Below are positions 3,685 to 62,479 of a stretch of 64,000 bases of DNA, piece after piece. The stretch's first letter is position 1; each line of letters starts with the position of its first letter. The stretch spans positions 23,069,118-23,133,117 of the forward strand of contig NC_090280.1 of the NCBI RefSeq assembly GCF_037392515.1. Direction: 5' to 3'. Source of the DNA: Haliotis asinina. Lineage: Eukaryota; Mollusca; Gastropoda; Lepetellida; Haliotidae. Below the pieces are notes generated by a model, which saw only the letters and a list, made by a program, of their open reading frames with translations, ran no database searches and had not been told where the DNA came from. Both the position numbers and the translations under genes were made by a program.

Positions 3685-4026
3685 GTGCTATAACGAGGAC
3701 CTGTCTACATCCAGTAATTTCCTGTCCATTGCTTCCCTGATAGTAGTAAGTACCAGCGTCATTGTAGATGGTGAACCTCAGCTGTCCGGCCTGTGATGGG
3801 GAGTCCTCCCCGGTGTATCTGATCCTGGTCCCGTAGCCGGTGTGACTGTTGTTGAGTCCCTCTAGTCGGTGTGAGCTAGGGATGACTACTAACAGTTTCT
3901 TAGATACCGAGCCATTCATAAACACGGAGTATACTGAGCTGACATTCTCAGGGTTCATGGTCATGGTAACATCTTCACCAACACGTGTAACTGTGTATGG
4001 GTATCCAGTTGTCATGGAGGCTACAG
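3685..4026 (-). CDS. V-like Ig exon, copy 1 (G0)
   Basis: 342 nt, phase 1-1, acceptor GAGTACAG, donor GTGAGT. It encodes GYPYTVTRVGEDVTMTM, GTRIRYTGEDSPSQAGQLRF and DAGTYYYQGSNG. It is 12 nt shorter than the intact copy in unit 2, and TGT has become TAT at the F-strand cysteine. Confidence 0.8.
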
Positions 4027-4333
4027 CTGTACTCAAAACAAATATTACTCCTGAAAACAAGGCTAACAGTTGACATAAATATTCAAGCTCATTATTGAAG
4101 CCCGATCAATATATTACAAGTTGATAGGTACATACCACATATGCAGGTACGCAAACGAATTGTGAACGAGAAATTTAGGCGTCAAAATATCTAGTTTCTC
4201 AAAAAAAATTTTCTTAGACAAAACTGGTCACTTATATAATGTCATGTAAAGCTCATTTAATGGGTTTCTTTACAGCTGACAGGTACATACCACACACATG
4301 TAAGCCCCAAAAGAGAATGTAAGCCAAAGACAT
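3685..4333 (-). CDS. Ig-superfamily receptor gene G0, 5' two exons only
   Basis: First two exons of a cluster member whose remaining exons lie left of the window. Exon 1 is 4333..4291 (start codon plus 13 hydrophobic codons). Exon 2 is 4026..3685 (V-like Ig domain), or 4050..3685 if the upstream in-frame acceptor is used. Phases join 1-1. The reading frame is open, but the V domain has lost four residues (VTVQ) found in the other copies. The F-strand YYC has become YYY, so the domain keeps only one cysteine. A LINE at 1-2729 occupies the following intron. The gene may still be expressed with an altered V fold, or may be decaying. Confidence 0.7.
4291..4333 (-). CDS. Signal-peptide exon, G0
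   Basis: 43 coding nt, phase 1 donor GGTATGTACC. Encodes MSLAYILFWGLHVC, a typical hydrophobic leader start. It matches the exons at 26960-27002 and 47168-47210. Confidence 0.75.
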
Positions 4334-4403
4334 GGCTGCTAGCGTGGTAAATTCATACTGATACATCACGCACCTTAACAATTGTTTTCAAGAGATGAAA
4401 TAT

Positions 4404-5478: not shown

Positions 5479-5490
5479 AAAAGTGGTGGT

Positions 5491-7720: not shown

Positions 7721-7732
7721 AAAAGTGGTGGT

Positions 7733-8789: not shown

Positions 8790-9010
8790 CTGTGGAAGAA
8801 GTTGAAGAGTGGAGAGACATATAGATGTGGAACTGTTCCGTCAGTTTAGGCTTCACCTGGTACTGTGGTCCTCTGTTGAGGAAGATGAAGAGTGGTGAGA
8901 CGTGTAGATGTGGAACTGTTCCGTCAGTTTAGGCTTCACCTGGTACTGTTGCCATGTGCTGAGGAAGATGGAGGATAGAGAGACGTGTAGATGTGGAACT
9001 GTTCCCTCAG
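8790..9010 (-). repeat. 83-bp minisatellite at the receptor stop codon, unit 1
   Basis: Two clear copies plus a degenerate one, spaced 83 bp (anchors ACCTGG at 8855 and 8938). The copy nearest the gene encodes FHIYTSL and the stop codon; the rest lie in the 3' UTR. Confidence 0.8.
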
Positions 9011-9119
9011 GGGTAGCTCGTAATCATGTAGAGGTAAGACATCGTTGTTGGAAGCACGAGGTACATCACTGAAGTCATGGGATAACCTCTCTGCCATCAC
9101 AGTGAGGTAGTCACCACAT
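8936..9119 (-). CDS. Tail exon, unit 1
   Basis: Phase 2 acceptor (AATTATAG), 61 codons including stop. It carries DYLTV, then HDYELPLREQFHIYTSL. Pro replaces the Leu of the first YxxL, so the ITAM consensus is lost here. It ends inside the 83-bp repeat. Confidence 0.8.
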
Positions 9120-9463: not shown

Positions 9464-9479
9464 CTGTTGTCCTGGTTCT
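9464..9479 (-). CDS. 16-nt microexon, unit 1
   Basis: AGAACCAGGACAACAG between a TTTTACTTGCAG acceptor and a GTACATG donor. Phase 1-2; encodes ENQDN. Identical in all three units. Confidence 0.75.
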
Positions 9480-10004: not shown

Positions 10005-10121
10005 CTTTTACATCCTTGCAGACAAGAACAGCGACTGCTGCCACCACCACTGCCACAGCAGTCAGCATAACGGAATAGACAGCTACGACAGGGACAATGT
10101 CGTCTACGTTTGCTTCACCCT
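10005..10121 (-). CDS. Transmembrane exon TM-b, unit 1
   Basis: 117 nt, phase 1-1, acceptor TTATATCAG. Encodes EANVDDIVPVVAVYSVMLTA followed by VAVVVAAVAVLVCKDVK: an acidic N-side, then about 24 hydrophobic residues. Related in sequence to TM-a. Confidence 0.8.
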
Positions 10122-10901: not shown

Positions 10902-10957
10902 CTTCTATTTCCTGGTAGCTCCCATCGTTTTCGTCTTCCCTGTGATACGACACCAGG
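10902..10957 (-). CDS. 56-nt tyrosine exon 2 (YQEI), unit 1
   Basis: Phase 2-1, weak donor AG|GTTGG. Encodes LVSYHREDENDGSYQEIE. Paralogous to the YEEI exon at 11716-11771. Confidence 0.75.
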
Positions 10958-11294: not shown

Positions 11295-11316
11295 CGATGA
11301 CGAGCAAATCCTCTCT
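11295..11316 (-). CDS. 22-nt microexon 2, unit 1
   Basis: AGAGAGGATTTGCTCGTCAT then CG, acceptor AACTTTCAG, donor GTGAGTA. Phase 1-2; encodes RGFARH. Confidence 0.7.
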
Positions 11317-11715: not shown

Positions 11716-11771
11716 CTGCTATCTCCTCGTAGCCTCCGTCTGTGTCTGCGTCACGGGTGTATGTGACAACG
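11716..11771 (-). CDS. 56-nt tyrosine exon 1 (YEEI), unit 1
   Basis: Acceptor CTTCCCCAG, phase 2-1, donor AG|GTTGG. Encodes VVTYTRDADTDGGYEEIA. pYEEI is the classic optimal ligand of Src-family SH2 domains. If the weak donor is ignored the frame runs open to about 11519. Confidence 0.75.
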
Positions 11772-12176: not shown

Positions 12177-12198
12177 CTATTAAATGTGTATCCTTTAC
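12177..12198 (-). pseudogene. 22-nt microexon 1, unit 1, acceptor lost
   Basis: Aligns to the microexons at 36895-36916 and 56032-56053, with donor GTGAGT intact. The preceding bases are TTTCTG instead of TTTCAG, so the acceptor AG is gone. Confidence 0.7.
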
Positions 12199-13948: not shown

Positions 13949-14071
13949 CTCCACGTCTGTGTTTTCTACAAACAACAACTATGACGACAACGGCGATGAC
14001 CACGATGAGGACCGAACAGACAGCAGTCACGGGAACGGTGGAAACGACACCAGATTCAGTGACCTCACGTG
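13949..14071 (-). CDS. Transmembrane exon TM-a, unit 1
   Basis: 123 nt, phase 1-1, acceptor ATGTTTCAG, donor GGTAAT. Encodes REVTESGVVSTVPVTAVCSV, a hydrophobic stretch of about 25 residues, then CRKHRRG: a type I membrane anchor with basic stop-transfer residues. Confidence 0.85.
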
Positions 14072-15233: not shown

Positions 15234-15494
15234 AGAAGACATCCAGTGTCAGGTTCCGTGATGCACTCCCATGTGTGTTGTTGACGTGACACATGTACTG
15301 TCTAGACACAGACACATCTACAGCTGGTATAGACAACACAGCCTTCCTGTGTCCTGTCATCACCATCTGTCTTGATGTGTCCCACCAGGTTACAGTGCAG
15401 GCAGGGTTACAGTCAGCAGAACATCTCGTCGTTACAGGTTTCCCTTCCTCCAGTTTGCCCCTTATGCCGTCAAAGTGTATCTGGTCAGGTCCAT
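15234..15494 (-). CDS. Ig domain II exon, unit 1
   Basis: 261 nt, phase 1-1, acceptor CATTGCAG, donor GTAAGT. I/C2-set domain: EEGKPVTTRC, then the cysteine-rich ADCNPACTVTWW, then VSRQYMCHVNNTHGSASRNL. Siglec/CD22-like layout with extra B-C loop cysteines. Confidence 0.85.
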
Positions 15495-16053: not shown

Positions 16054-16353
16054 AGAGAACATTCAGCACATGTTCGTGGCTCCAGTCAGACTTCAGTCCC
16101 TCCTCCACAGCCTGGCAACTGTAGATGTCTCCCCAGTTCTCTCTGCTGGCGTGAATTATTGTCAGGTCATCTCCACCTGTAGGAGACTCATCACCAGATT
16201 CTAGCAGGGTCCTGTCCCTTCTCCAGATGTAGGTCATGGTCAGTAGGGGGTGGTCCGGGGGTAGACTCCGGGAGGTGGAGGAACATGTAAGGGTGACATT
16301 CTCACCTGATACAGGTGAGGCAGGGCCGGTGATGGTAGGTGTGGTTGGCCTCT
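16054..16353 (-). CDS. Ig domain III exon, unit 1
   Basis: 300 nt, phase 1-1, acceptor TTTTTTCACAG, donor GTGAGTAAG. Encodes RPTTPTITGPASPVSGENVT then LTC, YIWRRDRTLLESG and GDIYSCQAVEEG. Canonical Cys-Trp-Cys pattern of a C2/I-set domain. Confidence 0.85.
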
Positions 16354-26368: not shown

Positions 26369-26710
26369 GTACTACAACGAGGACCTGTCTACATCCAGTA
26401 ACTTCCTACCTATTGGTTCCCTGACAGTAGTAAGTACCAGCGTCCTGTACAGTAACATTGTAGATGGTAAACCTCATCTGTCCGGTCTGTGATGGTGAGT
26501 CCTCCTCGGTGTATCTGATCCTGGTCCTGTACCCGCTGTTGAGCACTACACGGTGTGACTTGGGCTGGACCAGTAACAGTCTCTCAGCTACCGAACCATC
26601 CACCCATACATAATATATAAAGCTAACACTGTCTGGTTTCATGGTCATGGTAACATCTTCGCCAACACGTGTAACAGTGTATGGGTATCCAGTTGTCATG
26701 GAGGCAAGAC
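26369..26710 (-). pseudogene. V-like Ig exon, copy 2 (unit 1), nonsense codon
   Basis: 342 nt, acceptor GAGTGCAG, donor GTGAGT. Encodes GYPYTVTRVGEDVTMTM and DAGTYYCQGTNR, then TAG where the other copies have CAG (Gln). Four residues before GYRTRIRY are also missing. The F-strand cysteine is kept. Confidence 0.8.
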
Positions 26711-26959: not shown

Positions 26960-27002
26960 CACACACATGTAAGCCCCAAAACAGAATGTGAGTCACAGAC
27001 AT
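26960..27002 (-). CDS. Signal-peptide exon, unit 1
   Basis: 43 coding nt, ATG intact, donor GGTATGTATG. Encodes MSVTHILFWGLHVC. Confidence 0.7.
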
Positions 27003-34004: not shown

Positions 34005-34103
34005 TAATCGTATAGGGGTAAGACATCGTTGTTGGAAGCACGAGGTACATCACTGAAGTCATGGGATAACCTCTCTGCCATCACAGTGAGATATTCACCA
34101 AAT
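33920..34103 (-). CDS. Tail exon with ITAM, unit 2
   Basis: Acceptor TGATTACAG, phase 2, 61 codons with stop. Contains FGEYLTVMAERL, then YDYERLLRDQFHIYTSL: YxxL-x7-YxxL, matching the ITAM consensus. Ends HSTR-stop inside the first 83-bp repeat. Confidence 0.85.
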
Positions 34104-37100: not shown

Positions 37101-40100
37101 CCTGAGTAACACCAGTGTCTTGAAGCATGAATGTCGATTAAAACTAGTGTCCTGGAGCCAATGTAAACATAAACTTGGAAACTGAAGTCCATTAAACATG
37201 TAAATTTGTGCACACTGTTGATATATATCCTCTTCAAGCATCATCTTGAAGGTTCCATACTGAAGTACTTTAGAAACGCGAGTATCATATTATCATTCAT
37301 TATGGAGGGTGCAAAACGAACAGAAACTGTGCTCAAATTAATCTGACTTTCACAGATGAACTTGACGCATACCAAGAAATGCCCACGTGACCCACCATTT
37401 GCTGGAAATCAACTTTTCAATTTTCCGTGAAAATGCATAAACGTGGCGTTTTCACAACACATTGTCAGATCAGTCAACTGTGTACCGAAATCACACCGAA
37501 ATTTTGAACTGCACCAAATTGTTGACTTGGGCACAACATGTGATCGAGCACATCTTTGCCAACCATGTGTCTAGCCCGAGATCGCCGCATACAAGTTCAA
37601 GCCAGCCTCCAGAACAGATATTACCATTCATAGAAGAAGGGATATCGTCAGTCTCCAGACGGTACGATAGCGATTACGTCAGCAAGGGCTGCGTGCGCAT
37701 AAGTATTCTATTTACTGACGAGTCCTGATTTCATCTCAGTCATGCGTATACAAGGATCAGAGTGACATGGACAGCGTAACGGTGATTGTTGAGTTCAGCA
37801 GCGTTGAGGGAAGCGTATTACTAATGATTTGTTGAGAGACTGATAGTCATGACAGGACACGTGTGGACGTCTGCCGTAGTCGAGTTACAGCTCAAAATGA
37901 TACTTACTGAGAACAAGAGTCGTTCCTGCTCCCAGCATGGCGCCAGATCAACGTCTTCACATTTTGCAGGAGGATTATGCAAATGACGGTCATAACCGTT
38001 ACTGACATTGGCTCTGTGAAAGTTTTGAGCGCGTTTGGAAATAAATTTGATCCCTTCAACGTTATCGTTAATTCAACTTTGCACTGACTACTTTTGTTTT
38101 TTCTTGTGTTTCAACCCTAAATGACAATTTCAGTGTCAAGAGGGACAAGTTCTTTTCTTCGTTTAAAACGGAAATTCAACGTCTTATCCCAATGGTGCGT
38201 TTCTAAAGTAGTTCAGTATACTTCACAGTCTCCTCTCACAATCTGTCCTCTTTCAAACTCTTCCTTAAAGACGGTCTCAGATTCCATTTCCCCACAAGAG
38301 ACTTGGTTTTCTTCCTTGATGAATATTCACCATCAAGGACACTTTTACATTTAATCAAGATACACCACAGACACGTCACAAATCACACCTAGAGAGAATC
38401 ACTTAATATAGGTAGGACAAAAATCATCATTTCCTTGAAAATGTATCACATGTCAGTAGGAAGTGAAATAATTATCAGCTAGCTTTCTACTGAGTATGGG
38501 TGGAAATAGACATCAGACGCTACATGCCAAAGTATTGTAATATGTTTTGCAGACAAAGAAGAGGCATCAAATCAGTCCTTATTAGTACTGCTTAACATTT
38601 CTATAGGTGCATAGATGTACATGAGTTGTGGGGTAAAACGTTTTAAAGTACTACTCTGGTAACTATCTGATCCCCCATCCCCACCTTCCTAACCAGCGCG
38701 TCGTTTTCCCAGACTGTCATACATTATTCACTACATATAAGAAGTGCAAAGGGATAACTTACTGACGATGCACTGAACACATACACACGCACACACGCAC
38801 ACACGCACACACGCACACACGCACACACGCACACACGCACTCACGCACACGCACACGCACAAGCATCCACTCAACACGCTATTAAGTGAGATCGGTATAT
38901 GTAATTACTGAACCAAAGTGTTTGTGAGTTCTAGTCATTCACTGTCACATCACACCGTTTTACCTCCACGTCTCTGTTTTCTACAAACAACAACCATGAC
39001 GACGACAGTGATGATCACGATCAGGATGGAGCAGACAGCAGTCACTGGGACGATGGAAACGACACCAGATTCATTAAGCTCACGTGCTGAAACATTTAAT
39101 ATGGACAATATTCAGTTTAGCATTGTATAATCCTGTTTACCTTTCAGAAAAAAATAACATCCAAGATATGTTGCTTTATTTAAGGTACATGATGTGATTG
39201 AGTAAATGAGTGGAGTTTTATATCACTTATAACCCAGAAACATCACCCGTCTTAAGAAGATTTTAATTAGGTTCATGGCATGTCAACCGGGTTGACCCTT
39301 CCGATGTTCATCTAAAATGACACTTTCCAACTGCAATATAACCAGTTGCGTTCTCGATACAACACCCATCGATCCATCTTCATAGAGGGATCCAATAATA
39401 ATGGTCAAGTTACCAGTGCTACTGTCATTGCATCAATTTGAAGGGAGTAAAAACTTTATTACATATCTCATGCAAATATAATCTTGAATTTTACATATTC
39501 TGTCACAAAGCATGTTTCCGGAATCTGTGGAGGCCTTACTGAAGACCTCTAGTGTCAGGTTGCGTGATGCACTCCCATGGCTGTTGTTGACGTGACACGT
39601 GTACTGTCCAGACACAGACACATCTATAGCTGGTATAGACAACACAGCCTTCCTGTGTCCTGTAATCACCATCTGTCTGGATGTGTCCCACCAGGTTACA
39701 GTGCAGGCAGGGTTACAGTCAGCAAAACATCTCACTGTTACAGGTTTCCCTTCTTCTACCTGCAGCTTGTCCCTTGTGCCGTGAAACTGTATCTGGTCAG
39801 GTCCATCTGCAAAGCATGTGATATAATCAGAAATAATAATTTGATAACTTGATATTTTCTTCTATCATACCAATACCACTGTATATCAATTTCACTTGAA
39901 TTAATATTTCATCAACTTTCGGTTTAGACTTTTGAAGTTGGTTAGGTTTTATTTTTTACTCAATGCCTATTCTACTTTTAGTGTTGATCACATCTACATC
40001 TGCTAGCCTTGTCGAGTCTAGGCTCACCAATATAAGACTCCCAGTTTCAAAGATCTTACTGTTGTCACGAAAATATTACATTCAAATGCAAACGACGACA

Positions 40101-43032
40101 CATTACGCACATTCTGTTTTCGTTCCTCTAAGTCATACGTGTACGTATCAGTCAGGTATTCCGACTGGATGGTCGACCGCGACCGCAGCAGGGGAAACGT
40201 CCAATGTTTTCTTTGTACGAGTTTGATAGCCGCTCAACTGTGATTTTGTTAACAGTGGGAATCTACAGTCAACTGTATTTTGTATGTACACGTCCGATAT
40301 TGTCATTTGTATGCTCCGCCTGACCAACGTTGACAGTTCGAGTCATGTATTATCTTGACGTTCCTGTATATCTCATCTGATGCCCTTACGATTGTATCTC
40401 TAATGATCAGTGCCTGTACCAGATATTGTCAACGTTTCATGCATTTTACCGTATTCTTAATTGTAAACCCAATATTGTCACGATTTTAAAAAGAAGCGTT
40501 TTTGAGGACAAAAACCCCTTGAGTGAGTGAGTGAGTAGGTTGAGTTTTACGCCGCACTCAGCAATATTCCAGCTATATAGCAGCGGCCTATAAATAATCG
40601 AGTCTGGACCAGACAATCCAGTGATCAATAACATGACCATCGATCTGCGCAAATGGGAACCGATGACATGTGTCAACCAAGTCAGCGAGCCTGACCACCC
40701 CATTCCGTTAGTCGCGTCCTACGACAAGCAGAGTCGCCTTTTATGGCAAGCATAGGTTGCTGAAGGCCTATTCTACCCCGGGACCTTTACGGGTACTCGT
40801 CGATAAATCACTGTAGATTATTTTTCCCATAATTTTCTTGCATCTGTGCATGGTCAGAGTTTTCAGGGTCAAATCACACACTCCTGACTGAAAATTGTAA
40901 ACATGAAATTTTCATGCCATACTTTCAATCGCTTTGATCTGATTCAGTACATATTATGTATTGTTAGTTTTGTGTTGATCTTTCGTATTTCAGCTGAGTG
41001 GCCCGTGCCCGTTTTTTGCTCATTTAAAATATATGTCCAGGTGAGAAACAATGACATTACATAATTTTAAAGTGTTCGTGTATATTGGACATAACACCTG
41101 ACACCGCTTGCCTTTGAAGCTGAAAGCCTTCACCACAGATTCTGGCTGTGTTCTCTTCCGAAAGTTCTATATCAACGGACACCAGTAATGCCTTTTTGTT
41201 AGCGCTATGAGTAAACATGGTGTGGAGTTTGGAGCTATATAAATTGACACATTATTGTGTAGCTGTCATTAAGTCCTATCAGAACCACAAAGGTACTATC
41301 ATAATAATGATTCAGAACATAACGGTTCTATGTAAGTTGTATGCTAAGTTGCATAGATATGCGAGGTTCCTGTACCGTAAACAAAGGTACGTTCTTACTC
41401 ACAGAGGACATCCAGTACATGTTCGTGACTCCAGTCAGACTCCAGCCCCTCCTCCACAGCCTGGCAGCTGTAGGTGTCTCCCTGGTTCTCTCCGCTGACC
41501 TGGGTTATTGTCAAGTTATCTCCACCTGTTGGAGACTCATCACCAGATTCTAGGAGGGTCCTGTCCCTCCTCCAGATGTAGGTCATGGTCAGTTGGGGGT
41601 GGTCCGGGGGCAGACTCCGGGACGAGGAGTTGGAGCATGTGAGGGTGACATTCTCACCTGATACAGGTGAGGCAGGTCCGGTGATGGTAGGTGTGGTTGG
41701 CCTCTCTGTGAAAAAAATTTAACAGCTTCGCCGAGACCTTAACACCAGTACTAATCAACATGGTTTTACGAAATGTGTGAAAAACATTTTAAAATATGAA
41801 TCCACTGAGACATAATGAACTAAATGAACTGAATGAACTAAATGCTCTGACACTTTTATTAATGACGTATTCACCTTTATTGTCAATCAAATAAGCGCCA
41901 GCGACACGCTAATACTCCTAATCGGTTTGTTGATTAAATGTTCTACACAACATTTAATCAGTTGGCTGGACTAATCCCAAGGTCCGGCGTAAAAATGACA
42001 TTAGATATGCTCGTTGTTGTTACCTTGACTGGCGCTCGGGATTCTAGCAACAAGACAGGTGGATTCGGATATACTGCGAGTGAGTAGTTGGTTGGACTGT
42101 TGTTAACACGTAAGAACATTCCATATATATATATATATATATATATATATGGATGCGATCTGTAAATAATCAAGTCTGGACCGGACAATCCCGTGACCAG
42201 CATCATGAGCATACATCTACGCAATTGGGATACGATGACATGTGTCAACCAAGTCAGCGAGTCTGACTACACAATCCCATTAGTCGTCTCGTGCGACAAG
42301 CAAGGGGTAAAGAAGACCAATTCTAACCCGGATCTTCACGGGTATACTGTGAGTAGGCTTGCCATGTGTAACTCGACAAAAGCACATGCATGCACACGCA
42401 CGTACACACACACGAGTCTTTATATATGGTTAATTACGTTTTAGTTTAGACGCATTCTTTTAGTTATCTACCGTTCTGTTAACTCCACTCAGTACTCACG
42501 TGCTACAACGAGGACATGTCTACATCCAGTAACATTCTCTCCATTGCTTCCCTGACAGTAGTAAGTACCAGCGTCCTGTACAGTAACATTGTAGATGGTA
42601 AACCTCAGCTGTCCGTTCTGTGATGGTGAGTCCTCCCCGGTGTATCGTATCCTGGTCCTGTAGCCAGTGTGACTGTTGTTGAATACCCATACACGGTGTG
42701 TCTTGGACTGGACCAGTAACAGTCTCTTAGATACAGAACCATTCCCCACTACAAAATACTGGAAGCTGACATTTTCTGGGTTCATGGCCATGGTAACATC
42801 TTCACCAGCACGTGTAACAGTGTGTGGGTATCCAATTGTCATGGACACTAGAGCTGTATACGAAAAGGTAATTAGAATCAGAACTCAACAACCCTAGATA
42901 CAGACGTTAGACATTGCGTAAGATTAAAGTGAAAAGCAACTTAATCAGAGATTCAATATATATTTCAGTTTTCGAAAACAGATACATACCAAACCCACAT
43001 AGTGCTACGGACACAATGGAACCCAGAAACAT
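33920..43032 (-). CDS. Ig-superfamily receptor with ITAM tail, unit 2 (complete)
   Basis: Complete, intact gene model. Exons: 43032..42990 signal peptide; 42853..42500 V; 41705..41403 Ig III; 39806..39540 Ig II; 39086..38964 TM-a; 37925..37908; 36916..36895; 36517..36462 (YEEI); 36125..36104; 35766..35711 (YQEI); 35149..35033 TM-b; 34462..34447; 34103..33920 tail. They total 1581 nt (526 aa) if all are used, or 487 aa without TM-b. Type I membrane protein: V-like domain lacking the B-strand Cys, two canonical C2/I-set domains, TM with RKQRR stop-transfer, cytoplasmic YEEI, YQEI, YLTV and an ITAM (YERL-x7-YTSL). Two TM exons imply alternative splicing, since using both would place the ITAM outside. 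Ligand unknown; an activating, possibly immune, role is inferred. Confidence 0.8.
34447..34462 (-). CDS. 16-nt microexon, unit 2
   Basis: AGAACCAGGACAACAG, phase 1-2, same splice sites as units 1 and 3. Confidence 0.75.
34573..34634 (-). repeat. tRNA-like SINE fragment
   Basis: Minus strand GGTCGGTAGGCCAGTGGATA and B box GGTTCGATTCC. Orthologue of 9627-9688. Confidence 0.55.
35033..35149 (-). CDS. Transmembrane exon TM-b, unit 2
   Basis: 117 nt, phase 1-1. Encodes DANVDDIVPIVAVYSVMLTA and VAVVVAAVTVLVCTDVK. Shares the IVPxxAVxS...VVV pattern with TM-a, so the two look like tandem duplicates. Confidence 0.8.
35711..35766 (-). CDS. 56-nt tyrosine exon 2 (YQEI), unit 2
   Basis: Encodes VVSYHREDENDGSYQEIE, phase 2-1, acceptor TTTTACCAG, donor AG|GTTGG. 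Confidence 0.75.
35879..36039 (+). mobile_element. SINE-like repeat, TTGTTTAACGCC subfamily
   Basis: Orthologue of 11071-11230, in the intron between the YQEI exon and microexon 2. Confidence 0.7.
36104..36125 (-). CDS. 22-nt microexon 2, unit 2
   Basis: AGAGAGGATGTGCTCGTCAT then CG, phase 1-2; encodes RGCARH. Confidence 0.7.
36462..36517 (-). CDS. 56-nt tyrosine exon 1 (YEEI), unit 2
   Basis: Encodes VVTYTRDVDTGGGYEEIV, phase 2-1. Read-through of the weak donor ends six codons on (tag after WCWTSF). Confidence 0.75.
36895..36916 (-). CDS. 22-nt microexon 1, unit 2
   Basis: GTAGAGGATGCACATATAAT then CG, acceptor TTGTTTCAG, donor GTGAGTAA. Phase 1-2; encodes RGCTYN. Confidence 0.7.
37908..37925 (-). 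CDS. 18-nt microexon, unit 2
   Basis: GAACGACTCTTGTTCTCA, acceptor CTGGGAGCAG, donor GTAAGT. Phase 1-1; encodes TTLVL. Confidence 0.6.
38779..38863 (+). repeat. (ACACGC)n microsatellite
   Basis: Hexanucleotide array in the intron after TM-a. Its unit 3 counterpart is at 57838-57896. Confidence 0.9.
38964..39086 (-). CDS. Transmembrane exon TM-a, unit 2
   Basis: 123 nt, phase 1-1. Encodes RELNESGVVSIVPVTAVCSI, LIVIITVVVMVVV, then CRKQRRG. Confidence 0.85.
39540..39806 (-). CDS. Ig domain II exon, unit 2
   Basis: 267 nt, phase 1-1. GPDQIQFHGTRDKLQVEEGK, CFADCNPACTVTWW, VSGQYTCHVNNSHGSASRNL. Six nt longer than unit 1. Confidence 0.85.
40521..40795 (+). mobile_element. Gastropod SINE-like repeat, full length
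   Basis: Head GAGTGAGTGAGTGAGTAGGT to tail GGACCTTTACGGGT, with all internal blocks. In the Ig III to Ig II intron; unit 3 has an orthologous copy at 59675-59937. Confidence 0.9.
41403..41705 (-). CDS. Ig domain III exon, unit 2
   Basis: 303 nt, phase 1-1. RPTTPTITGPASPVSGENVT, LTCSNSSSRSL, TYIWRRDRTLLESGDESPTG, GDTYSCQAVEEG, VLDVL. Canonical Cys-Trp-Cys. Confidence 0.85.
42078..42344 (+). mobile_element. Gastropod SINE-like repeat with (AT)n expansion
   Basis: Same variant as 3316-3550, with the CCATATATATGG motif expanded to about (AT)13 at 42123-42150. Confidence 0.8.
42500..42853 (-). CDS. V-like Ig exon, copy 3 (unit 2), intact
   Basis: 354 nt, phase 1-1, acceptor TTCGTATACAG, donor GTGAGTA. 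Encodes GYPHTVTRAGEDVTMAM, GYRTRIRYTGEDSPSQNGQL and VQDAGTYYCQGSNG. The B-strand position is Met instead of Cys. The only cysteines are YYC and a later TGC. Five N-glycosylation sequons. Confidence 0.85.
42990..43032 (-). CDS. Signal-peptide exon, unit 2
   Basis: Encodes MFLGSIVSVALCGF, then donor GGTATGTATC. Differs in sequence from the other three leader exons but has the same length and phase. Confidence 0.8.
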
Positions 43033-46554: not shown

Positions 46555-47210
46555 GTGCTACAACGAGGACATGTCTACATCCAGTAACTTCCTGTCCATT
46601 GTTTCCCTGACAGTAGTAAGTACCAGCGTCCTGTACAGTAACATTGTAGATGGTAAACCTCAGTTGTCCGGTCTGTGATGGTGAGTCCTCCTCGGTGTAT
46701 CTGATCCTGGTCCTGTAGCCGACTACTGTTGAGTACCTCTACACGGTGTGACTTGGACTGGACCAGTAACAGTCTCTTAGATACCGAACCATTTACCCAT
46801 ACATAATATAAGAAGCTGACATTGTTTGGGTTCATGGCCATGGTAACATCTTCACCAACACGTGTAACAGTGTATCGGTATCCAGTTGTCATGGAGACTA
46901 GAGCTGCACTCAAAACAAATATTACTCATGAAAACAAGGCTGACATAAATATTCAAGCACATTATTTAAGCCCTCTCAATATATTACAAGTTGACAGATA
47001 CATGGCACCTATACATTCAAGCAAACGATATGTAAACCAGAAATTAAGGCGTCAAACTATCTAGTTTCTCTGAATAATGTTTTATTAGAGAAAACTGGTC
47101 ACTTATAAAAAGTCATGTAAAGCTCATGTAATTCAACTAATGTTCTTTTCAGCTGACAGGTACATGCTGCATGCACGTAAGCCCCAAAACAGAATGTAAG
47201 CCAAAGACCT
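46555..47210 (-). pseudogene. Dead signal-peptide/V cassette, copy 4
   Basis: Leader exon 47210..47168 has ATG changed to AGG and donor GT changed to GC. V exon 46903..46555 is 349 nt because of a 5-nt deletion after VEVLNS, which shifts the frame. Flanks align to those of G0 (2735-5300), so this is a displaced copy of that cassette upstream of the live unit 2 cassette. Confidence 0.85.
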
Positions 47211-52834: not shown

Positions 52835-53060
52835 TAGGCTCTGTTGAAAAGTGGAGACACGTGCATATGTGGAACTGTACCGTCAGTTTGGGTTTCACCT
52901 GGTACTGTGGTCCTCTGTTGAGGAAGATGAAGGATGGAGACACGTGCATATGTGGAACTGCACCGTCAGTTTAGGTTTCACCTAGTACTGTGGTCCTCTG
53001 TTGAGGAAGATGAAGGATGGAGAGACGTGTAGATGTGGAACTGATCCCGCAGGAGTCGTT
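52835..53060 (-). repeat. 83-bp minisatellite, about 2 copies, unit 3
   Basis: Anchors at 52897 and 52980 plus a partial. The short allele of the 8-copy array in unit 2. Confidence 0.85.
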
Positions 53061-53161
53061 CGTAATCGTATAGGGGTAAGACATCGATGTTGGAAGCACG
53101 AGGTTCATCACTGAAGTCATGGGATAATCTCTCTGCCATCACAGTGAGATATTCACCACAT
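52978..53161 (-). CDS. Tail exon with ITAM, unit 3
   Basis: CGEYLTVMAERL, then YDYERLLRDQFHIYTSL and HSTR-stop. Same consensus ITAM as unit 2. Confidence 0.85.
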
Positions 53162-56100
53162 CTGTAATCACAACATTACACTTATGTTGCACTTGCCCAT
53201 AGGTGCATGTATTTTTCTTTCAAGCAGTGTGCAGCGGAAATCACCTCCTATAAACCACTTCAACCATGATCATAGATTTCCAAAACATTTTTAGCAAATT
53301 GTGCATCAGTTACATAGATACATTTGCTACTTTCTCTGTCATTTCCACAGGTAATCGATGCCGGCGTTTATCTAAGATTTCTAAAGGTACGTTTAGTAAA
53401 TGGTGTTTAACACAGAAGACAGCAACCGTTGATATGAAGATTTGTTCACTAGTTATTACGATGATTGACTCCAGCACTTAAGATAAAAACATGAAAACGT
53501 GTACCTGTTGTCCTGGTTCTCTGCAAGTAAAACAAAAGACAAACTTGTACATTTCTAAACTGATCGATTCATCCAACAATGAGTAACAGTAAAGAATTAG
53601 TCGTACTCAGAATAGTCCATCAACATCACCAAAACCAGAACACGATAAATATGGTTTCATTATACTCATATGGGGGAATCGAACCTGCGTCTGTGGCCTG
53701 AACACCTTATCCACTGACCTACCGACCGCTCCATTACTGAATAAAAGAATCAAAACACACTTCACAAACTAAAATGAGAACAAAATATTGCAGCACGCGA
53801 AGGTGAACCACGGATATGCCCGTATGCTGTTCGAGGCTGCATTCAACAATATCCCAGCTAGACTACGCTTGTCTGATACACCCGAGAACATAGATAGACT
53901 TGCCGAAACACCCAGTGGTTGATATAAAGAGCGTCGATTTACGCAACTGGGATACGAGAGATCATGCATGAGCATAATCAACCAGCGTTTCTCACCTGTT
54001 GTAACAAGCATGGTTGTTGAAGACAGGTTCTGACCAGGCCCTGCACGTTGGGGTAAGTTTCTGTTGCTTGTTCAGTGTTGGGGATTGGAGGTGGGTTGAA
54101 ACTTACATTGCATGCAAAAATATTCATGCATTCTTTGTACCTTTCACGTCCTTGCAGACAAGAACAGTGAGAGCTGCCACCACAACTGCCACAGCAGTCA
54201 GCATAACGGAGTAGACAGCTACGATGGGGACGATGTCGTCCACGTTTGCATCACCTTCTGATATAAGACAAAGATGACACATATCTGCATTAAGTAGGAT
54301 AATTCAAGTGACAATACAGCGCCGTATTTCACCATGGTGTATGTTCTAGTGTCTGTTAAAGCATTAATTTACTTTATGACATAAATAATGTCAACTGACA
54401 AAATAGTATTTTGCTCTGCAAGAACTATAACGCAATAAAGTAAGCAAGCCATGAATAAGGAAGAATCATTCACCGGGATGACCATTACAGCTCTCCAGAC
54501 TAGTGGATCCTTTTCCCCAACACGGCCTATCACCAATATCTGGTCGTCCTTTATGAATACTGAGAGAAGTACTCAGTATTCGGACATCTAGAAAATCCGA
54601 CTATTTACAATGTTATAGCTATTCTATTATGGCTATTTCAGACTAAATAATCGGGGGTTTGGTCTCCTTGGTTGGTTTGAGACACGACTCCCGTTCCAGG
54701 CTTCAGACACTAGACAGTTCGAGCTACGTTTACTCGACATATCAGTACCCTATACGGCAGTTCGAGTTTCACAGTCGTTACACATCATGCTAGTTGTTAA
54801 CCTTCAGACACCAACCTTCTATTTCCTGGTAGCTCCCATCATTTTCGTCTTCCCTGTGATACGACACCACACTGGTAAAAGGGAACATTGAACGTGAGCA
54901 TAATGAGAGGAAATTATTAAGCTGGGACACGCTCTCAGTTCACATCGCGCTCCTAGTCGTGTATAGTTTTGTCTGGTTGGTTTGTTGTTTAACGCCGCAC
55001 TCAGCAATATGACACCTATATGTCGACGGTCTGTAAATAAATGGTTCTGGACCAGATAATCCAGTGTTCAACAACACAAGCATCGATCCCGTTCATCACC
55101 TTTTACAAGCATGGGTTGATGAAAACCACTTTACCACGGGTAATTACACCCATGTGGTGATGAAACATTATTCATCTTACTTGAAGATTGATGAACATAC
55201 TCACCGATGACGAGCACATCCTCTCTCTGAAAGTTTAAAGTGTGTGGGAACAATTATGCATACAAACTGAAAGTATATATTTACTTCTTGCACACTGATG
55301 TTACCATTTTTTCTACATTTAGAAGTTTAAGAGTTTAAGAGAAACTGTACATCATACGGTATGAGTTTCAGTAGAAGGTCAGTCAGTGCTAACAGTTGTC
55401 ACGGATTTTAAAATGTTACAGACCTATAGTTTTGAATGTTGACAGCTTGCAACAAGTCCAGGACTGTTTTTCAGACATTCTACATAATGCTACCCCTTTA
55501 ACAATTCGTATGACCTGTTTAACGTCATCTGATTTAACTGACGTGGAGTACAACAATGACGTCCAGCACCAACCTACTATCTCCTCGTAGTCTCCGTCTG
55601 TGTCTGCGTCACGGGTGTATGTGACAACGCTAGGGGAAAGAAATGTAGAAAGTGGTCGGAATCAAGGATATTTAAAAAAAACAAAGACAATCCGCTTTCC
55701 TCAGACACAGAATCTTGCAAGGAACAAAATAGTTGCTACAGTTATATGCATGAATGTGTTCACAAAAAGGGTAAGCAAGTTCTGCCTTATCGGTATTTGA
55801 CGCTCTTCTAACATTTACCTGAAAGAACGAAATCTTTTTGACACCAACAGCTCATTAGCGATGTGCCATTAATTCTGCTTGGGCTTATGCTCCACATATA
55901 CTGCTACTAATAAGTGAAGTATAGCTAATCAAATCACTGTATTTCTGATTAAGTGTTTCCACAATACCATTGAAAAATAGCAGCTACTACAAAATTTTAA
56001 GTCAGCTGTTTACACATTTTGCCTTACTCACCGATAATATGTGCATCCTCTACCTGAAACAAATAATTTTGTGTAAATAATGACATATGCACAATGTTAG

Positions 56101-59100
56101 ATGTAAAATATGAGATAAACGAATTTCCTGTATAATTATACATCTTTGAAGTGGAAATAAATATCTTGCTATTTGTAGAACGACATGTTTGTAGAACAAA
56201 TGTCAGCTGATTAACACCAGTGTCTTGAAGCAAACACTTGGAAACTGAAGTCCATTAAACATGTAAATTTGTGCACACTGTTGATTTATATCCTCTTCAA
56301 GCATCAACTTGAAGGTTCCATACTGAAGTACTTTAGAAACGCGCGTATCATATTATTATCATTCATTATGGAGGAGGCAAAACGAACAGAATCTGTCCTT
56401 GAAGTAATCTGACTTTCACAGATGAACTTGATGCACACCAAGAAATACGTGCATTCCTGTATGGTCAAGTGACCCACCATTTGCTGGAAATCACCTTTTC
56501 ACCTGCAAATCGCGTAAAAATGCATAAAACGTGACGTTTTCACAACATATTGTTAGATCAGTCAACTGTGCACCAAAATCACACCGAAATTTTGAACTGC
56601 ACCAAATTGTTGACTTTGGCACAACACGTGATCGAGCACATCCTTGACAACCATGTGTCCAGCTCGAGATCACCGCATTGTCTTCACTCTTTTTTAAGGA
56701 ACAGGTTCAAGTCAATCTCCAGAAGAGACATTACCATTCACGGAAGAAGGGATATCGTCAGTCTCCAGACGGTACGATTGTGATTACGTCAGCTGGGACT
56801 GTGTGCGCATAAGTATTCTCTTTACTGCCGAGTCCTGATCTCATCTCAGTCATGCATATACAAGGGCGACGTGGACAGCGTAACGCTGATTGTTGAGTTC
56901 AGCAGGGATGGTGGAGGCGTAATGATTTGTAACGAGATTAGTAGTGATGGCAGGACACACGTGCACGTCTGTCGTGGTCGAGTTACAGCTCAAATGAATA
57001 CGTACTGAGAACAAGAGTCGTTCCTTTTCCCAACAGGAAGGCAGATCAACGACTTCACATTTTCCAGCAGGATTATGCAAATGATGGCCATACCCGTTAC
57101 TGTCACTGACTGTGAAACTTTTGAGCGCGTTTGGAAGTAAATTTGACCCCATTCAACGTTATCGCTAATTCATGTTTGCACTAAACTGAGAATGACTAAT
57201 TTTGATTTTACTCGTGTTTCAATCTTGTTTGACGACTTCGGTTTCAACAAGGACAAGTTATTTTCTTCGTTTATCACGGATATTCAATGTCTTATCCCAG
57301 TGATGCGTTTTTAAAGTAGTTCAGTATACTTTCACCGCCTTCCCTTATAATCTATCCTCTCTATCAAACTCTTCCTTAAAGGCCTGGCTCAAATTCCATC
57401 TCCCCACAAGAGACTTGGTCTTCTTCCTTGATGAATACCAATTGTCACCATCAAGGACACTTTTACATTTAATCAAGATACACACAGACACGTTAGAAAT
57501 CACACCTGGAGAGAATCAGTTAATATAGGTAGGACAAAATGATCATTTCGTCGAAAATGCATCACATGTCAGTATGAAGTGAAATAATTATTAGCTAACT
57601 CTTTACTGAGTATGTGTGGAAATAGACATCAGACGCGACATACCAAAGTATTGTTGTATGTTTTGCAGACAAAGAAGAGGCATGAAATCAATACTTATTA
57701 CTATTGCTTAACATTTCTATAGGTGTATATATGTATATGAGTTGTTGGGTAAAAGTACTACTCTGGTAAATATCTGACGTGCCCTTTTCCCCGCTCCCCA
57801 CTACCCTCTCCGACCCTCTAGCGACGATGCACTCAACATACACACGCACACGCACACGCACACGCACACGCACACGCACACGCACACGCACACGCTCAAC
57901 ATGCTATTAAGTGAGATCGGTATACGTAATTACTGAACCAAAGTAGTCAAGAAGTGTTTGTGAGAGAGGCCACTTCACGTCCCTCTCGAGTTCTAGTCAT
58001 TCACTGTCACATCACACTGTATTACCTCCACGTCTCTGTTTTCTACAAACAACAACTATGACGACAATGGCGATGACCACGATCAGGATGGAGCAGACAG
58101 CAGTCACTGGGACGATGGAAACGACACCAGATTCATTAACCTCGCGTGCTGAAACATTTAATATGGACAACATTCAGTTTAGCATTGTATAATCCTGTTT
58201 ACTTTTCAGAAACAAATAACATCCAAGATATGTTGCTTTATTTAAGGTACATGATGTGATTACAAAATACCAGAGATATAATTTATACCTGGATTACAAA
58301 TATAACCAGGGCTGCCCCGTATCTGCGAATTTGAGTGGGTGGGTGAGGGAGTGAGGGGGTGAGCGGGTAAATTGGTGGGTATGAGTGAGTGAGTAAATGA
58401 GTGGAGTTTTATGCCACTTATACCCCAGTAACATCACGCCTCTTAAGAAGATTTTAATTAGGTTCACGACATATCAACTGGGTTGACCCTTCCGATGTTC
58501 ATCAGAAATGACACTTTCAAACTGCAATACAACCAGTTGCGTTCTCGATACAACACCCATCGATCCGTCTTCATAGAGGGATCCAATAATAATCGTCAAG
58601 TTGCCAGTCAACCAACCAGTGAGCCAGTCAGTCCGTGAGCCAGTCAGTCAGTCAGTCAGTCAGTCAGTCAGTCAGTCAGTCAGTCAATCAGTCAGTCAGT
58701 CAGTCAGTCAGTCACTCAGTCACTCAGTCAGTCACTCAGTCAGTCATATCATCAGATTAATAGTCAAGATTGACCTCCTGAGCCATATTACTAGTTTGTA
58801 TAAATACCTGTTCAGACTGTCTGTGTGTTTTGAGAAATTTGAAGGGAGTAAAAACTTAAAAGTCATTATATATCTCATTCAAATGTAATCTTGAATTTTA
58901 CATATTCTGTCACGAAGTATGTTTCCGGAATCTGTGGAGGCCTTACTGAAGACCTCTAGTGTCAGGTTGCGTGATGCACTCCCATGGCTGTTGTTGACGT
59001 GACACGTGTACTGTCCAGACACAGACACATCTATAGCTGGTGTAGACAACACATCCTCCCCGTGTCCTGTAATCACCATCTGTCTGGATGTGTCCCACCA

Positions 59101-62100
59101 GGTTACAGTGCAGGCAGGGTTACAGTCAACGGAACATCTCACTATCACAGGTTTCCCCTCTTCTACCTCCCATGTGCCGTGAAACTGTATCTGGACAGGT
59201 CCATCTGCAAAGCGTGTGAGATAATCAGAAATAATAATTTGATATTTTCTTCTATCATACCAATACCAAGGCATATCAATTTCAATTGAATTAATGTTTC
59301 ATCAACTTTAGGTTTAGACTTTTGAAGTTGGTTAGGTTTAATTTTTTCTCATGCCAGGCTACATCTTCTAGCCTTATCGAGTCTAGGCTCATCAATATAA
59401 GATTCCCAGTTTCAAAGATCTTACTGTTGTCACGAAACATTACATTCAAATGCAAACGACGACACATTACGCACATTCTGTTTTTGTTCCTATAAGTCAT
59501 ACGTGTCCCGTATCAGTCAGGTATATCCGACAGGATGAACTTACTATTATATCTCTAATGATCAGTGCCTGTACCAGATATTGTCAACGTTTCATGCATT
59601 TTACCGTATTCTTAATTGTAAACCCAATATTGTCACTGTTTTAAAAAGAAGCGCTTTTAAGGAGAGAAGCTCCGTGAGTGAGTGAGGGAATGGATTGCGC
59701 TTTACGCAGCAGTCAGCAATAGTCGAGCTCTGTGAATAATCGAGACTGGACCAGACAATCCAGTTATCAACAACATGAGCATCGATCTGCTCAACTGGGA
59801 ACCGATGACATGTGTCCACCAAGTCAGTGAACCTGACCACCCGATCCCGTTAGTCGCCTTTTATAACAAGTATAGTCGCCTTTTATGGCAAGCATGGGTT
59901 GGTGAAGGCCTATTCTACCCCGGACCTTCGGGGATCCAAAATCTCCATGACGCTCAGGGCTGTTGTCACAGACTAAGTTATTTCAATAAGTTTCTTTGAA
60001 GCTTCATTTATTCAAACGATCAATTTGTTTCAACATATGTCCAAAGTGCACTGAAATTCTGTCCCCTTTGTCTATGTCATGTATTCAGCAAACATTCGGT
60101 GTATCCCCTCTTAACATCACCAACCCTCCGGGCAGGACCCTTAATTCTCAAACGTTATCAATATATGGCAGTTAACACTTCCCTACGTCGGCGAATCTTA
60201 CGTATATACATGTGCATGGGCCAGTGACCTTGCACAATGTGGCGTAATGGCCCTGTGTATAAAAATCTGAATGATATGATCAGTTGGCGAGACCAGCCAG
60301 GGAGACCAACCAAGGAGACCAGTCAGGAAAACAAGAAGCGAACGGATTGTGCGGTTAGTCGGGTTGTCGGCCAAGGCCGTCGCTCCAAATACGACTACGT
60401 CGACGGTGAAGAAACGCCTTCCGACTTCTGAATGTGTGAGGTGACAGAACGGGTCTCCAAATCAGGAACATTGGCCACTCAGTCCTGTCACATGTTTACC
60501 ACTGTATATACCTTTGCGACCATCATTCGACCAAACAATAATAAAACATGGCTGCTGCTATCTTCTTCTCTACCACTGACTTTTGTTTTTCTTCCGTCTC
60601 TTGTCCACCATCCTGAACTACCACCAGACAGCAACCACAAACGAACTCTCTTAGGCAAGTATACTCTTAAAACAAGTAGGGTAACCTGAACTTTGAAATC
60701 TGGTAGAAAGAAAACCCATTCAGGAACGTTACAATGACATTCTTTTTGTGTATGCAGCATCATTTCACGTTATCACCACACGCAAACACAATGCATGGGA
60801 AGCACGTGCACAACGTCGGACCCTCCTACGCGTGCATGGGGTGCCATTATGAATCCTGACGTTTCTCAGGCTCTTCCGTAGACTGTATTTTTCGGATAGT
60901 TTTCTTGCATTCGTGGATGGTCAGAGTTCAGAGGTCAAATCACACACTTCTCACTGAAAATTGTAAACCTGAAATGTTCATGACATACTCCAGTCACCTA
61001 ACAAGGGGGATAAGTGAACGAACAGGTATGCTTTGAATGAAATCCAGGTGGAAGTTGGTTATGTTCTCAAAACATCCATTGTTACTGTATCAGCATTGAT
61101 TCAATCGCATATATCTCCCAATTTCGACAATCATACATTGAAAGTACAGTTCACTTACTGTTTTTAAGAGTATATATGAAATCTGGGAAAAGAATGCCTC
61201 TTAAAACAGTTTTGAAATTATTATCATGTTGAGGTTTGAAATTTCCAGAAAGTTGTGTCCCATCCCTATCCTTTATCCATCTCCACTGAGAAATGTACAA
61301 GTACAGTGTTAACCATTACTGATGAATGAATGAAGACTCAGTACAAGGTAAAATACCAACTACTCATTCAACGTGTGGCACAGGCCTTCATGACTGTCAC
61401 AATCAAGTATGAATTGTCCATAATTTATATCAAGAGGACCTTCATTAACAGTTACGTACCTTGCCATCACGTTGAAACAAGATCAACATTGAAATATTAG
61501 TTCTAAGGTAACCAGTTAAAACCCCTTTCGTTTAGTAAACGACCACCGCTCAACTTTTGGCCCGCGTGGTTGGTATCGAATCTCATGTGTTCCGTATTTT
61601 CCTGATATTTTACATAACCTTGTTTTGACCTTTGTCTGTCACCGTGCATTTACATTATCTGAAATCTGCATATTTGATGCTACGCTAGAATTGCAAGCCT
61701 GAGGAACATAAATTGGCGCTTTCGTAACCCGTGTCATGTGATTCAGTAAATGTATGTATTGTTAGTTTTGTGTTGATCGTTTGTATTTGAGCTGAGTGGT
61801 CCGTTTTGCTCATATCTAAAGCACATGTCCAGGTCAGCAACAATGACATGACATATTTTTGGTCACTGGTGTATATTCGATAAAACACCTGACACCGCTT
61901 GCCTTTGAAGCTGAAAGCTTTCATCACAGTTTCTGACTATGTTCTCTCCCAACAGTCAATAACGCCCTATTGTTAGCGCTATGAGCATACTTGGTGTGGA
62001 GTTTGGCGCTATATCAATGGACACATTATTATGTTGTTGCTGTCATTAATTCCCAACCGAACCACCAAGTTACTATCACAATAATGATTCAGGACCTAAA

Positions 62101-62479
62101 GGTTCTATGTAAGCTGCATGCTAAGTTGTATAGATATACGAGGTTCCTGTACCGTAAACAAAGGTACGTTCTTACTCACAGAGGACATCCAGTACATGTC
62201 CGTGACTCCAGTCAGACTCCAGCCCCTCTTCCACAGCCTGGCAGCTGTAGTTGTCTCCCTGGTTCTCTCTGCTGACGTGGGGTATTGTAAGGTCATCTCC
62301 ACCTGTAGGAGACTCATCACCAGATTCCAGCAGGGTCCTGTCCCTCCTCCAGATGTAGGTCATGTTCAGAGGGGGGTGGTCCGGGGGTAGACTCCGGGAC
62401 GAGGAGGAGCATGTGAGGGTGACATTCTTACCTGACACAGGTAAGGCAGGTTCGGTGATGGTAGGTGTGGCTGGCTTCT
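52978..62479 (-). CDS. Ig-superfamily receptor with ITAM tail, unit 3 (5' partial)
   Basis: Exons: 62479..62180 Ig III; 59204..58947 Ig II; 58148..58026 TM-a; 57023..57006; 56053..56032; 55629..55574 (YEEI); 55226..55205; 54871..54816 (YQEI); 54257..54141 TM-b; 53520..53505; 53161..52978 tail. Signal-peptide and V exons must lie right of the window. The visible 1172 nt stay in frame (389 residues then stop). All splice sites checked are GT/AG and no lesion was found. Cytoplasmic motifs are YEEI, YQEI, YLTV and the ITAM YERL-x7-YTSL, as in unit 2. The Ig II to Ig III intron carries two insertions absent from unit 2. Confidence 0.75.
53505..53520 (-). CDS. 16-nt microexon, unit 3
   Basis: AGAACCAGGACAACAG, phase 1-2. 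Confidence 0.75.
53670..53730 (-). repeat. tRNA-like SINE fragment
   Basis: B box GGTTCGATTCC on the minus strand. Orthologue of 9627 and 34573. Confidence 0.55.
54141..54257 (-). CDS. Transmembrane exon TM-b, unit 3
   Basis: DANVDDIVPIVAVYSVMLTA, VAVVVAALTVLVCKDVK. 117 nt, phase 1-1. Confidence 0.8.
54816..54871 (-). CDS. 56-nt tyrosine exon 2 (YQEI), unit 3
   Basis: VVSYHREDENDGSYQEIE, phase 2-1. Confidence 0.75.
54985..55140 (+). mobile_element. SINE-like repeat, TTGTTTAACGCC subfamily
   Basis: Orthologue of 11071-11230 and 35879-36039. Confidence 0.7.
55205..55226 (-). CDS. 22-nt microexon 2, unit 3
   Basis: Identical to the unit 2 copy; RGCARH, phase 1-2. Confidence 0.7.
55574..55629 (-). 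CDS. 56-nt tyrosine exon 1 (YEEI), unit 3
   Basis: VVTYTRDADTDGDYEEIV, phase 2-1, acceptor TTCCCCTAG. Confidence 0.75.
56032..56053 (-). CDS. 22-nt microexon 1, unit 3
   Basis: GTAGAGGATGCACATATTAT then CG; RGCTYY, phase 1-2, acceptor TTGTTTCAG. Confidence 0.7.
57006..57023 (-). CDS. 18-nt microexon, unit 3
   Basis: GAACGACTCTTGTTCTCA, acceptor TTGGGAAAAG, donor GTACGT; TTLVL, phase 1-1. Confidence 0.6.
57838..57896 (+). repeat. (ACACGC)n microsatellite
   Basis: Pure hexanucleotide run in the intron after TM-a. Confidence 0.9.
58026..58148 (-). CDS. Transmembrane exon TM-a, unit 3
   Basis: 123 nt, phase 1-1: VNESGVVSIVPVTAVCSILI, further hydrophobic residues, then CRKQRRG. Confidence 0.85.
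58604..58748 (+). repeat. (CAGT)n microsatellite
   Basis: Long CAGTCAGTCAGT run in the TM-a to Ig II intron. The site in unit 2 near 39420 lacks it. Confidence 0.9.
58947..59204 (-). CDS. Ig domain II exon, unit 3
   Basis: 258 nt, phase 1-1. GPVQIQFHGTWEVEEGKPVI, CSVDCNPACTVTWW, SGQYTCHVNNSHGSAS. Nine nt shorter than unit 2. Confidence 0.85.
59675..59937 (+). mobile_element. Gastropod SINE-like repeat, full length
   Basis: Orthologue of 40521-40795, more diverged (GATTGCGCTTTACGCAGCAG head). Confidence 0.8.
59940..60875. mobile_element. Unclassified insertion specific to unit 3
   Basis: The homologous intron of unit 2 runs from the SINE end (40795) directly to TTTTCTTGCATCTGTGCATG, whereas unit 3 has about 930 extra nt here. 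It includes AATAATAAAACATGGCTGCT, which resembles an LTR poly(A) region, but I could not define terminal repeats. Family unknown. Confidence 0.4.
61000..61740. mobile_element. Second unclassified insertion specific to unit 3
   Basis: Unit 2 reads CATACTTTCAATCGCTTTGA then TCTGATTCAGTA continuously. Unit 3 has about 740 nt between CATACTCCAG and TGATTCAGTA. No coding domain seen. Confidence 0.4.
62180..62479 (-). CDS. Ig domain III exon, unit 3
   Basis: 300 nt, phase 1-1. KPATPTITEPALPVSGKNVT, LTCSSSSRSL, TYIWRRDRTLLESGDESPTG, GDNYSCQAVEEG. Confidence 0.85.

Follow-up and report, generated by a model that had tools for sequence, protein, structure and literature searches.

The minus strand of a 64,000-nucleotide stretch of the Haliotis asinina genome (hereafter the window) carries a lineage-specific array of Haliotis receptor genes, composed of three recently duplicated units (U3, U2 and U1), the 5′ end of another copy (G0) and a relic 5′ end, all in the same orientation. 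The units follow one plan: V-like, C2 and I-set Ig exons lead to a transmembrane exon, TM1, which is followed by a pair of phosphotyrosine exons, another transmembrane exon (TM2) and a final exon with YxxLx7YxxL. Judging from sequence, we hold it to be somewhat probable (about 0.55) that the array encodes tandem germline type I Ig receptors with an ITAM, that each mRNA uses one TM exon, and that the family includes paralogues with a different tail, termed tail B.

Self-comparison of the window showed that U1, U2 and U3 are colinear over most of their length and align with the same exons, which upholds the minus-strand tandem array described in an initial annotation of this DNA. The limits given there coincide exactly with exon boundaries: 3685 is the lower end of the V exon in G0, and 62479 the upper end of the C2 exon in U3. 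That annotation had placed four loci on one plan. Three units indeed share their exons, but G0, which it had rightly called partial, is represented in the window by a leader and a V exon only, and the relic 5′ end had been overlooked. Moreover, the plan comprises 12 exons rather than 13 and two TM exons rather than one, and the U2 product has 520 amino acids with TM2 or 481 without it rather than 526. In the DNA between the tail exons, U2 and U3 diverge by 8.5%, and U1 diverges from either of them by 17–18%. The window is metazoan genomic DNA with a GC content of about 0.40, and no tRNA was found in it.

Splice sites are of the AG/GT type, and phases agree throughout the plan: Ig and TM exons are 1-1, X exons 1-2, and exons C and D 2-1. 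In U2 the frame runs uninterrupted from ATG to TGA across such sites with matching phases, and all 10 U3 exons inside the window are open; both units are thus as intact as had been claimed, and U1 is decaying as proposed, with lesions in its V exon, X1 and exon F (Table 1). A single-ORF reading was dropped because the exons are short and split. Likewise, a leader near 47.2 kb was rejected as that of U2, its ATG being AGG and its donor lost; the leader at 43032–42990 fits instead. An automatic exon scan scored several extra segments (e.g. 35401–35318), none of which is part of the final model.

Table 1. Exons of the array and relic elements, in nucleotide positions of the window
Feature	Position	Strand	Remarks
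U3 C2 Ig exon	62180..62479	-	U3 V and leader outside window
U3 I-set Ig exon	58947..59204	-	
U3 TM1 exon	58026..58148	-	
U3 mini-exon X1	56032..56053	-	
U3 exon C	55574..55629	-	YEEI
U3 mini-exon X2	55205..55226	-	
U3 exon D	54816..54871	-	YQEI
U3 TM2 exon	54141..54257	-	
U3 mini-exon X3	53505..53520	-	
U3 exon F	52978..53161	-	ITAM core intact
Relic leader	near 47207	-	AGG for ATG; relic 5′ end spans 47.2-46.5 kb
Relic V exon (V2a)	46555..46903	-	frameshifted
U2 leader exon	42990..43032	-	MFLGSIVSVALCGF; 10/16 aligned residues identical to RefSeq P0013 leader
U2 V-like exon	42500..42853	-	
U2 C2 Ig exon	41403..41705	-	
U2 I-set Ig exon	39540..39806	-	
U2 TM1 exon	38964..39086	-	
U2 mini-exon X1	36895..36916	-	
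U2 exon C	36462..36517	-	VVTYTRDVDTGGGYEEIV
U2 mini-exon X2	36104..36125	-	
U2 exon D	35711..35766	-	VVSYHREDENDGSYQEIE
U2 TM2 exon	35033..35149	-	1-1 phase; paralogous to TM1 (tested on U3 pair)
U2 mini-exon X3	34447..34462	-	16 nt, phase 1 to 2
U2 exon F	33920..34103	-	YERL-LRDQFHI-YTSL (ITAM core), then TGA stop
U1 leader exon	26960..27002	-	MSVTHILFWGLHVC
U1 V-like exon	26369..26710	-	in-frame TAG
U1 C2 Ig exon	16054..16353	-	
U1 I-set Ig exon	15234..15494	-	
U1 TM1 exon	13949..14071	-	
U1 mini-exon X1	12177..12198	-	acceptor AG lost (CTG)
U1 exon C	11716..11771	-	YEEI
U1 mini-exon X2	11295..11316	-	
U1 exon D	10902..10957	-	YQEI
U1 TM2 exon	10005..10121	-	
U1 mini-exon X3	9464..9479	-	NQDN
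U1 exon F	8936..9119	-	ITAM first half degraded (YELP)
G0 leader exon	4291..4333	-	MSLAYILFWGLHVC; phase 1 end before GTATGT; resembles P0005 leader
G0 V-like exon	3685..4026	-	F-strand Cys to Tyr; 12 bp missing, frame kept

Clustered expansion with pseudogenes, another element of the initial annotation, is borne out by the duplicated units, the broken U1 and the relic 5′ end. Such damage, together with the G0 V domain that lacks its Cys and the DNA between tail exons that is still 82–92% alike among copies, could also mean that the window holds mostly decaying copies whose common exon plan is duplicated DNA without coding function. This reading is largely refuted by the intact state of U2 and U3, by the recurrence of the same exon plan in RefSeq proteins from four Haliotis species, and by omega values below 1. 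The latter, summed over pairs of units and taking in the decaying U1, were 0.38 for C2, 0.66 for I-set, 0.38 for TM1, 0.21 for TM2, 0.53 for X3-F and 0.67 for V (V0, V1 and V2b), with 0.99 for four small tail exons on few changes. Positive selection is not indicated by any of these omegas, including that of V.

Exons of the array recur as exact peptides in RefSeq proteins. For U3 this holds for 9 of 10 exons in H. asinina P0005, the exception being the 6-aa X1, which is replaced in the P0005 model; for U2 and U1, 7 of 11 and 9 of 11 exons, respectively, match some family member. P0001, of 771 aa, looks like U2 and U1 fused, with a few substitutions in its U2 part. These matches and the Ig domains recognised by Pfam substantiate the Ig ectodomain that had been assigned to a gastropod. 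A protein search that scored the 8000 candidates sharing most words with the query yielded 68 related protein clusters with E values no higher than 0.001, every one of them from Haliotis; counted from the listing, 31 belong to H. asinina, 17 to H. cracherodii, 15 to H. rubra and 5 to H. rufescens. The same contig size figure, 105,963,769, stands on all 31 H. asinina rows, which suggests that these members sit on one chromosome. Tail-only searches (E up to 0.01) returned 37 proteins for tail A and 10 for tail B, only from Haliotis. Because the searches need shared 5-residue words, remote relatives in other genera may be missed. Among the matches listed in the open-access literature (titles and abstract openings, and selected passages), we found no description of the Haliotis array and its tail-swapped relatives. 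As far as these searches go, the family is new, and a variant of known receptor kinds.

Exon F, with ...YDYERLLRDQFHIYTSL..., is the putative signalling exon of the array. The ITAM pattern YxxL/I x6-8 YxxL/I is present in U2 and U3 (YERLLRDQFHIYTSL) and absent from U1, which has YELP where YERL is expected. Within the 31 exon-F proteins (a set that includes P0008 and leaves out P0014), 28 from four species keep the core, the misses being P0012, P0030 and P0044. Both ITAM tyrosines are invariant across 26 distinct exon F sequences; from this set, as from the 25 proteins used for glycosylation sequons below, P0001, P0009 and P0044 were left out by hand. When sequences were shuffled, the pattern (L or I, spacing 6–8) arose in 0.8% of trials for exon F and in 1.1% for the whole tail. 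An acidic residue at position -3 of the first Tyr, which is part of the ITAM definition in the passages of PMC2832619 considered here, is absent in U2 and U3, where -3 is Leu and Asp is found at -1.

Motif conservation supports the activating-type tails proposed in the initial annotation. That proposal requires, however, that TM1 and TM2 do not end up in the same protein, because joint use of both exons would put exon F and its ITAM outside the cell, and 30 of the 31 exon-F RefSeq models hold the two together. TM1 and TM2 are paralogous, as the U3 pair aligned with a score of 63 versus 30 ± 5 for shuffles, none of 2000 being as high. If both were always used, the product would be a two-pass protein with a cytosolic YEEI/YQEI loop, an extracellular YxxL pair and no true ITAM, and any signalling would run through the loop. 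In line with such a protein, the models that combine TM2 with the first hydrophobic segment come from four species, an omega of 0.21 places TM2 under purifying selection, and the D-to-TM2 and TM2-to-X3 phases fit. Yet N-glycosylation sequons, which are enriched in the ectodomain of 25 proteins (193 seen versus 66 expected), are absent from the TM1–TM2 loop (0 versus 7.6) and depleted after TM2 (4 versus 11.8; 6 of 1000 shuffles as low), so that loop and C-terminus both look cytosolic. Mean charge over the 15 residues flanking TM2 is -6.0 before and 0 after the segment (30 proteins), a pattern that prefers N-out; the corresponding means for TM1 are -0.7 and +3.3 (15 proteins caught by a text pattern). 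Taken together, sequons and charges make both segments look N-out, C-in. Gene predictors, for their part, tend to chain in-frame exons, which we count against a two-pass protein, as we do the conservation of YxxLx7YxxL, and we regard joint use of both segments as unlikely.

Alternative use of TM1 and TM2 appears more likely from these sequence features than their joint use. The 1-1 phase of both exons allows either to follow the Ig exons, or TM2 to be skipped, with the frame kept; a direct Ig-to-TM2 splice was not present among the RefSeq models examined. Type I receptors with one TM per mRNA would come in two in-frame forms, one with TM1, the exons for YEEI/YQEI and the ITAM, the other with TM2 and only the ITAM. 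Their three Ig domains would bind ligand, and clustering of the receptor would allow Src-family and Syk-type kinases to phosphorylate and bind the ITAM, whose signalling would activate the cell, probably a haemocyte.

The V-set Pfam score is above cut-off for P0005, and the F-strand Cys of the V domain is found in 39 of 39 sequences, with a further Cys about 10 residues on in 38 of them. No B-strand Cys was found in the B-strand stretch of the five pattern matches displayed, and the canonical V-set pair of B- and F-strand cysteines is lacking. The predicted structure of P0005 is of no more than fair quality, with a mean pLDDT of 61 and values of 46–69 in the V blocks, so no disulfide was read from it. 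At this quality, the modelled ectodomain resembles the three-Ig ectodomains of nectin-like 4, CEACAM6, MAG and CD22; nectin-like 4 is the best Foldseek match, with OPCML, MAG, CD22 and CEACAM6 close behind, and no weight is given to families missing from these matches. This ranking, the cell-adhesion-like public RefSeq names (e.g. cell adhesion molecule 4-like) and the fact that a single YxxL can serve as an endocytic motif would suit a lineage-specific expansion of nectin-like or CADM-type adhesion proteins that act in tissue, gamete or self recognition and use tyrosine tails for endocytosis or cytoskeletal links, and not for immune activation. We consider this quite improbable, given that 28 of 31 proteins preserve the entire YxxLx7YxxL spacing and that immune or allorecognition families more typically show turnover of tandem copies, pseudogenes and exchanged tails (general background; PMC2832619, in part).

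Tail B or its stub occurs in 11 of the 68 proteins, and the tail is complete in four of them (P0029, P0033, P0042 and P0065). The P0042 model has no TM before the tail, a sign of imperfect prediction. On a tree of the C2-Ig region built from 58 of the 68 rows (the 10 whose matches fell short of 150 aa were excluded), which supersedes an earlier ectodomain tree of 33 of the 68 proteins selected by text pattern, tail-B rows are scattered, and their placement in one clade was rejected by the AU test (p 1e-51; 11 rows). Narrower tests, for which the groups were chosen after the first tree had been seen, gave p 0.0024 (nine main-clade tail-B rows) and 0.0038; they weigh more because the 11-row test mixes in the very divergent ectodomains of P0064 and P0065. 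All eight main-clade rows of H. rubra group together (97/91) regardless of tail. On the other side, six H. asinina tail-B ectodomains form a clade of their own (99/92), and shuffled tail labels cluster less on the tree than the real ones.

Alike ectodomains with different tails in one species, the signature of paired receptors, were found in the predicted H. rubra proteins P0029 (tail B) and P0011 (ITAM), whose ectodomains are 91% alike over 291 residues and whose tails show no match beyond 7 residues. The P0029 ectodomain is 77–81% like those of five H. asinina tail-B proteins, 80–81% like those of two H. asinina tail-A proteins and 47% like that of P0065, and its tail is 75–83% like that of three H. 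asinina tail-B proteins. The cross-species argument for tail B rests on this one H. rubra model, which could be a chimeric prediction, although its TM region lies slightly nearer to tail-B members (71–75% to P0033, P0036 and P0038, 68% to P0065) than to four tail-B-free proteins of H. rubra (60–70%). An inhibitory role for tail B was not adopted, because the strict ITIM (I/L/V/S)xYxx(L/V) occurs in only one of the four full tails (LTYADL, P0029); a looser pattern, as VVYEEI, occurs in two of the four.

Paired receptors, activating ones beside ones with another tail, whose ectodomains co-evolve are known mainly from vertebrates and are ascribed to pathogens. In Haliotis, paralogues would join an ectodomain of the same kind to the tyrosine-rich tail B, and recombination within species may keep the ectodomains of both tail kinds alike, a parallel to vertebrate paired receptors. 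Tentatively, one might even envisage an independent abalone paired-receptor system in which near-identical Ig ectodomains bear an ITAM or a second tyrosine tail, recombination homogenises them in each species, and the choice between two TM exons yields a long tail (YEEI, YQEI and ITAM) or a short one (ITAM only) from a single locus, a possibility to be taken with reserve. For CEACAM paired receptors, the same pattern of ectodomains and tails is ascribed to gene conversion and recombination in the relevant passages of PMC2832619. Vertebrate paired receptors, above all CEACAM1/CEACAM3 (as described in these passages) but also LILR, KIR and CD33-related Siglecs, resemble the array in being tandem families with V-like and C2-type Ig domains and pseudogenes, in having members with an ITAM core beside members with another tail, and in ectodomains alike within species (in Haliotis, one H. 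rubra protein). The YxxL motifs of the CEACAM ITAM are described as split by phase 0 introns, whereas the Haliotis core lies in one exon (PMC2832619, in part). Haliotis further differs from vertebrate paired receptors in its duplicated TM exons, in a second tail that is not evidently inhibitory and in lacking a canonical V disulfide. Domain order and predicted fold are like those of the Siglecs MAG and CD22; Siglecs are further defined by an Arg that binds sialic acid and by ITIMs, and the tails of the array carry an ITAM core. The equivalence with vertebrate LRC/Siglec clusters is best treated as an analogy, and the immune role put forward in the initial annotation as a hypothesis.

An Ig receptor with an ITAM is already known from a mollusc, namely CgIgIT2 of the oyster Crassostrea gigas, for which microbe binding and ERK signalling were reported (PMC11999971, in part). 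Compared by description, it likewise combines Ig domains, a TM and an ITAM, but it has five Ig domains, and its description in the parts of that source drawn on here mentions no array. Hydractinia Alr (a 41-gene family) and Botryllus fuhc, also compared by partial description, are alike in forming clusters, in V-set and I-set domains (Alr) and in ITIM, ITAM or hemITAM tails (PMC11999971, PMC12065747); they differ in being allorecognition systems of other phyla, with receptors described as unrelated (PMC12065747). Oyster CgSiglec-1 and the snail FREPs are molluscan IgSF immune proteins too, but the former has two I-set domains and the latter a fibrinogen domain, and neither is described as an ITAM receptor array in the passages concerned (PMC5877582, PMC11999971).

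A paired family in a gastropod, confined to Haliotis in these searches, would represent an independent origin and would provide comparative immunology with a molluscan recognition system open to testing in farmed animals. Automatic annotation, with its fused gene model and two-TM models, hides the family behind adhesion-molecule names. A third kind of tail is present in H. rubra P0067, which carries YVSLGQEEHVHIYTAL.

The V-like domains of the array lack the B-strand cysteine. In 38 of the 39 proteins with the pattern, a cysteine is found instead about 10 residues past that of the F strand, and these two residues could be disulfide-bonded to each other over the CDR3-like loop. The F-strand cysteine itself is lost in G0, the 5' end of a fourth gene at the window edge.

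In all three units, U1, U2 and U3, the ITAM exon (F) overlaps at its 3' end with an 83-bp minisatellite, and the second ITAM tyrosine is thus encoded by the first minisatellite copy. Additional copies are strung into the tail of P0009, a related Haliotis RefSeq protein.

The public RefSeq model P0001 (771 aa) appears to fuse two units that lie side by side, the intact U2 and the decaying U1. Peptides of the U1 I-set, TM1, X1 and C exons are matched exactly in P0014, another Haliotis protein related to the array, and those of the C2, TM2 and F exons in P0001. This division may reflect either a near-identical second copy or mixing during gene prediction. In the H. asinina family member P0044, unrelated sequence continues beyond the tail and PF13358, a transposase DDE family, is listed for this protein; the extension may have arisen by insertion or through faulty gene prediction.

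Coordinates of array exons and repeats within the window
Feature	Position	Strand	Remarks
V-like exon, G0	3685-4026
V-like exon, U1	26369-26710
V-like exon, U2	42500-42853
83-bp minisatellite, U1	8789-9010		2.7 copies
83-bp minisatellite, U2	33311-33985		8.1 copies
83-bp minisatellite, U3	52852-53043		2.3 copies
Retrotransposon remains	359-2376	+	reverse transcriptase and RNase H domains, frames broken
Retrotransposon remains	5501-6629	+	reverse transcriptase domain, frame broken
Dispersed repeat (examples)	20649-20830, 21011-21258, 28363-28601, 40521-40797, 59701-59937
Long TGTATGTCTGTA-type microsatellite	62979-63751

Besides retrotransposon remains, the window contains a repeat, roughly 150-270 bp long, that is dispersed in both orientations and is SINE-like on size alone. 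No tRNA gene was found in the 64 kb. The TGTATGTCTGTA-type microsatellite yields spurious long ORFs.
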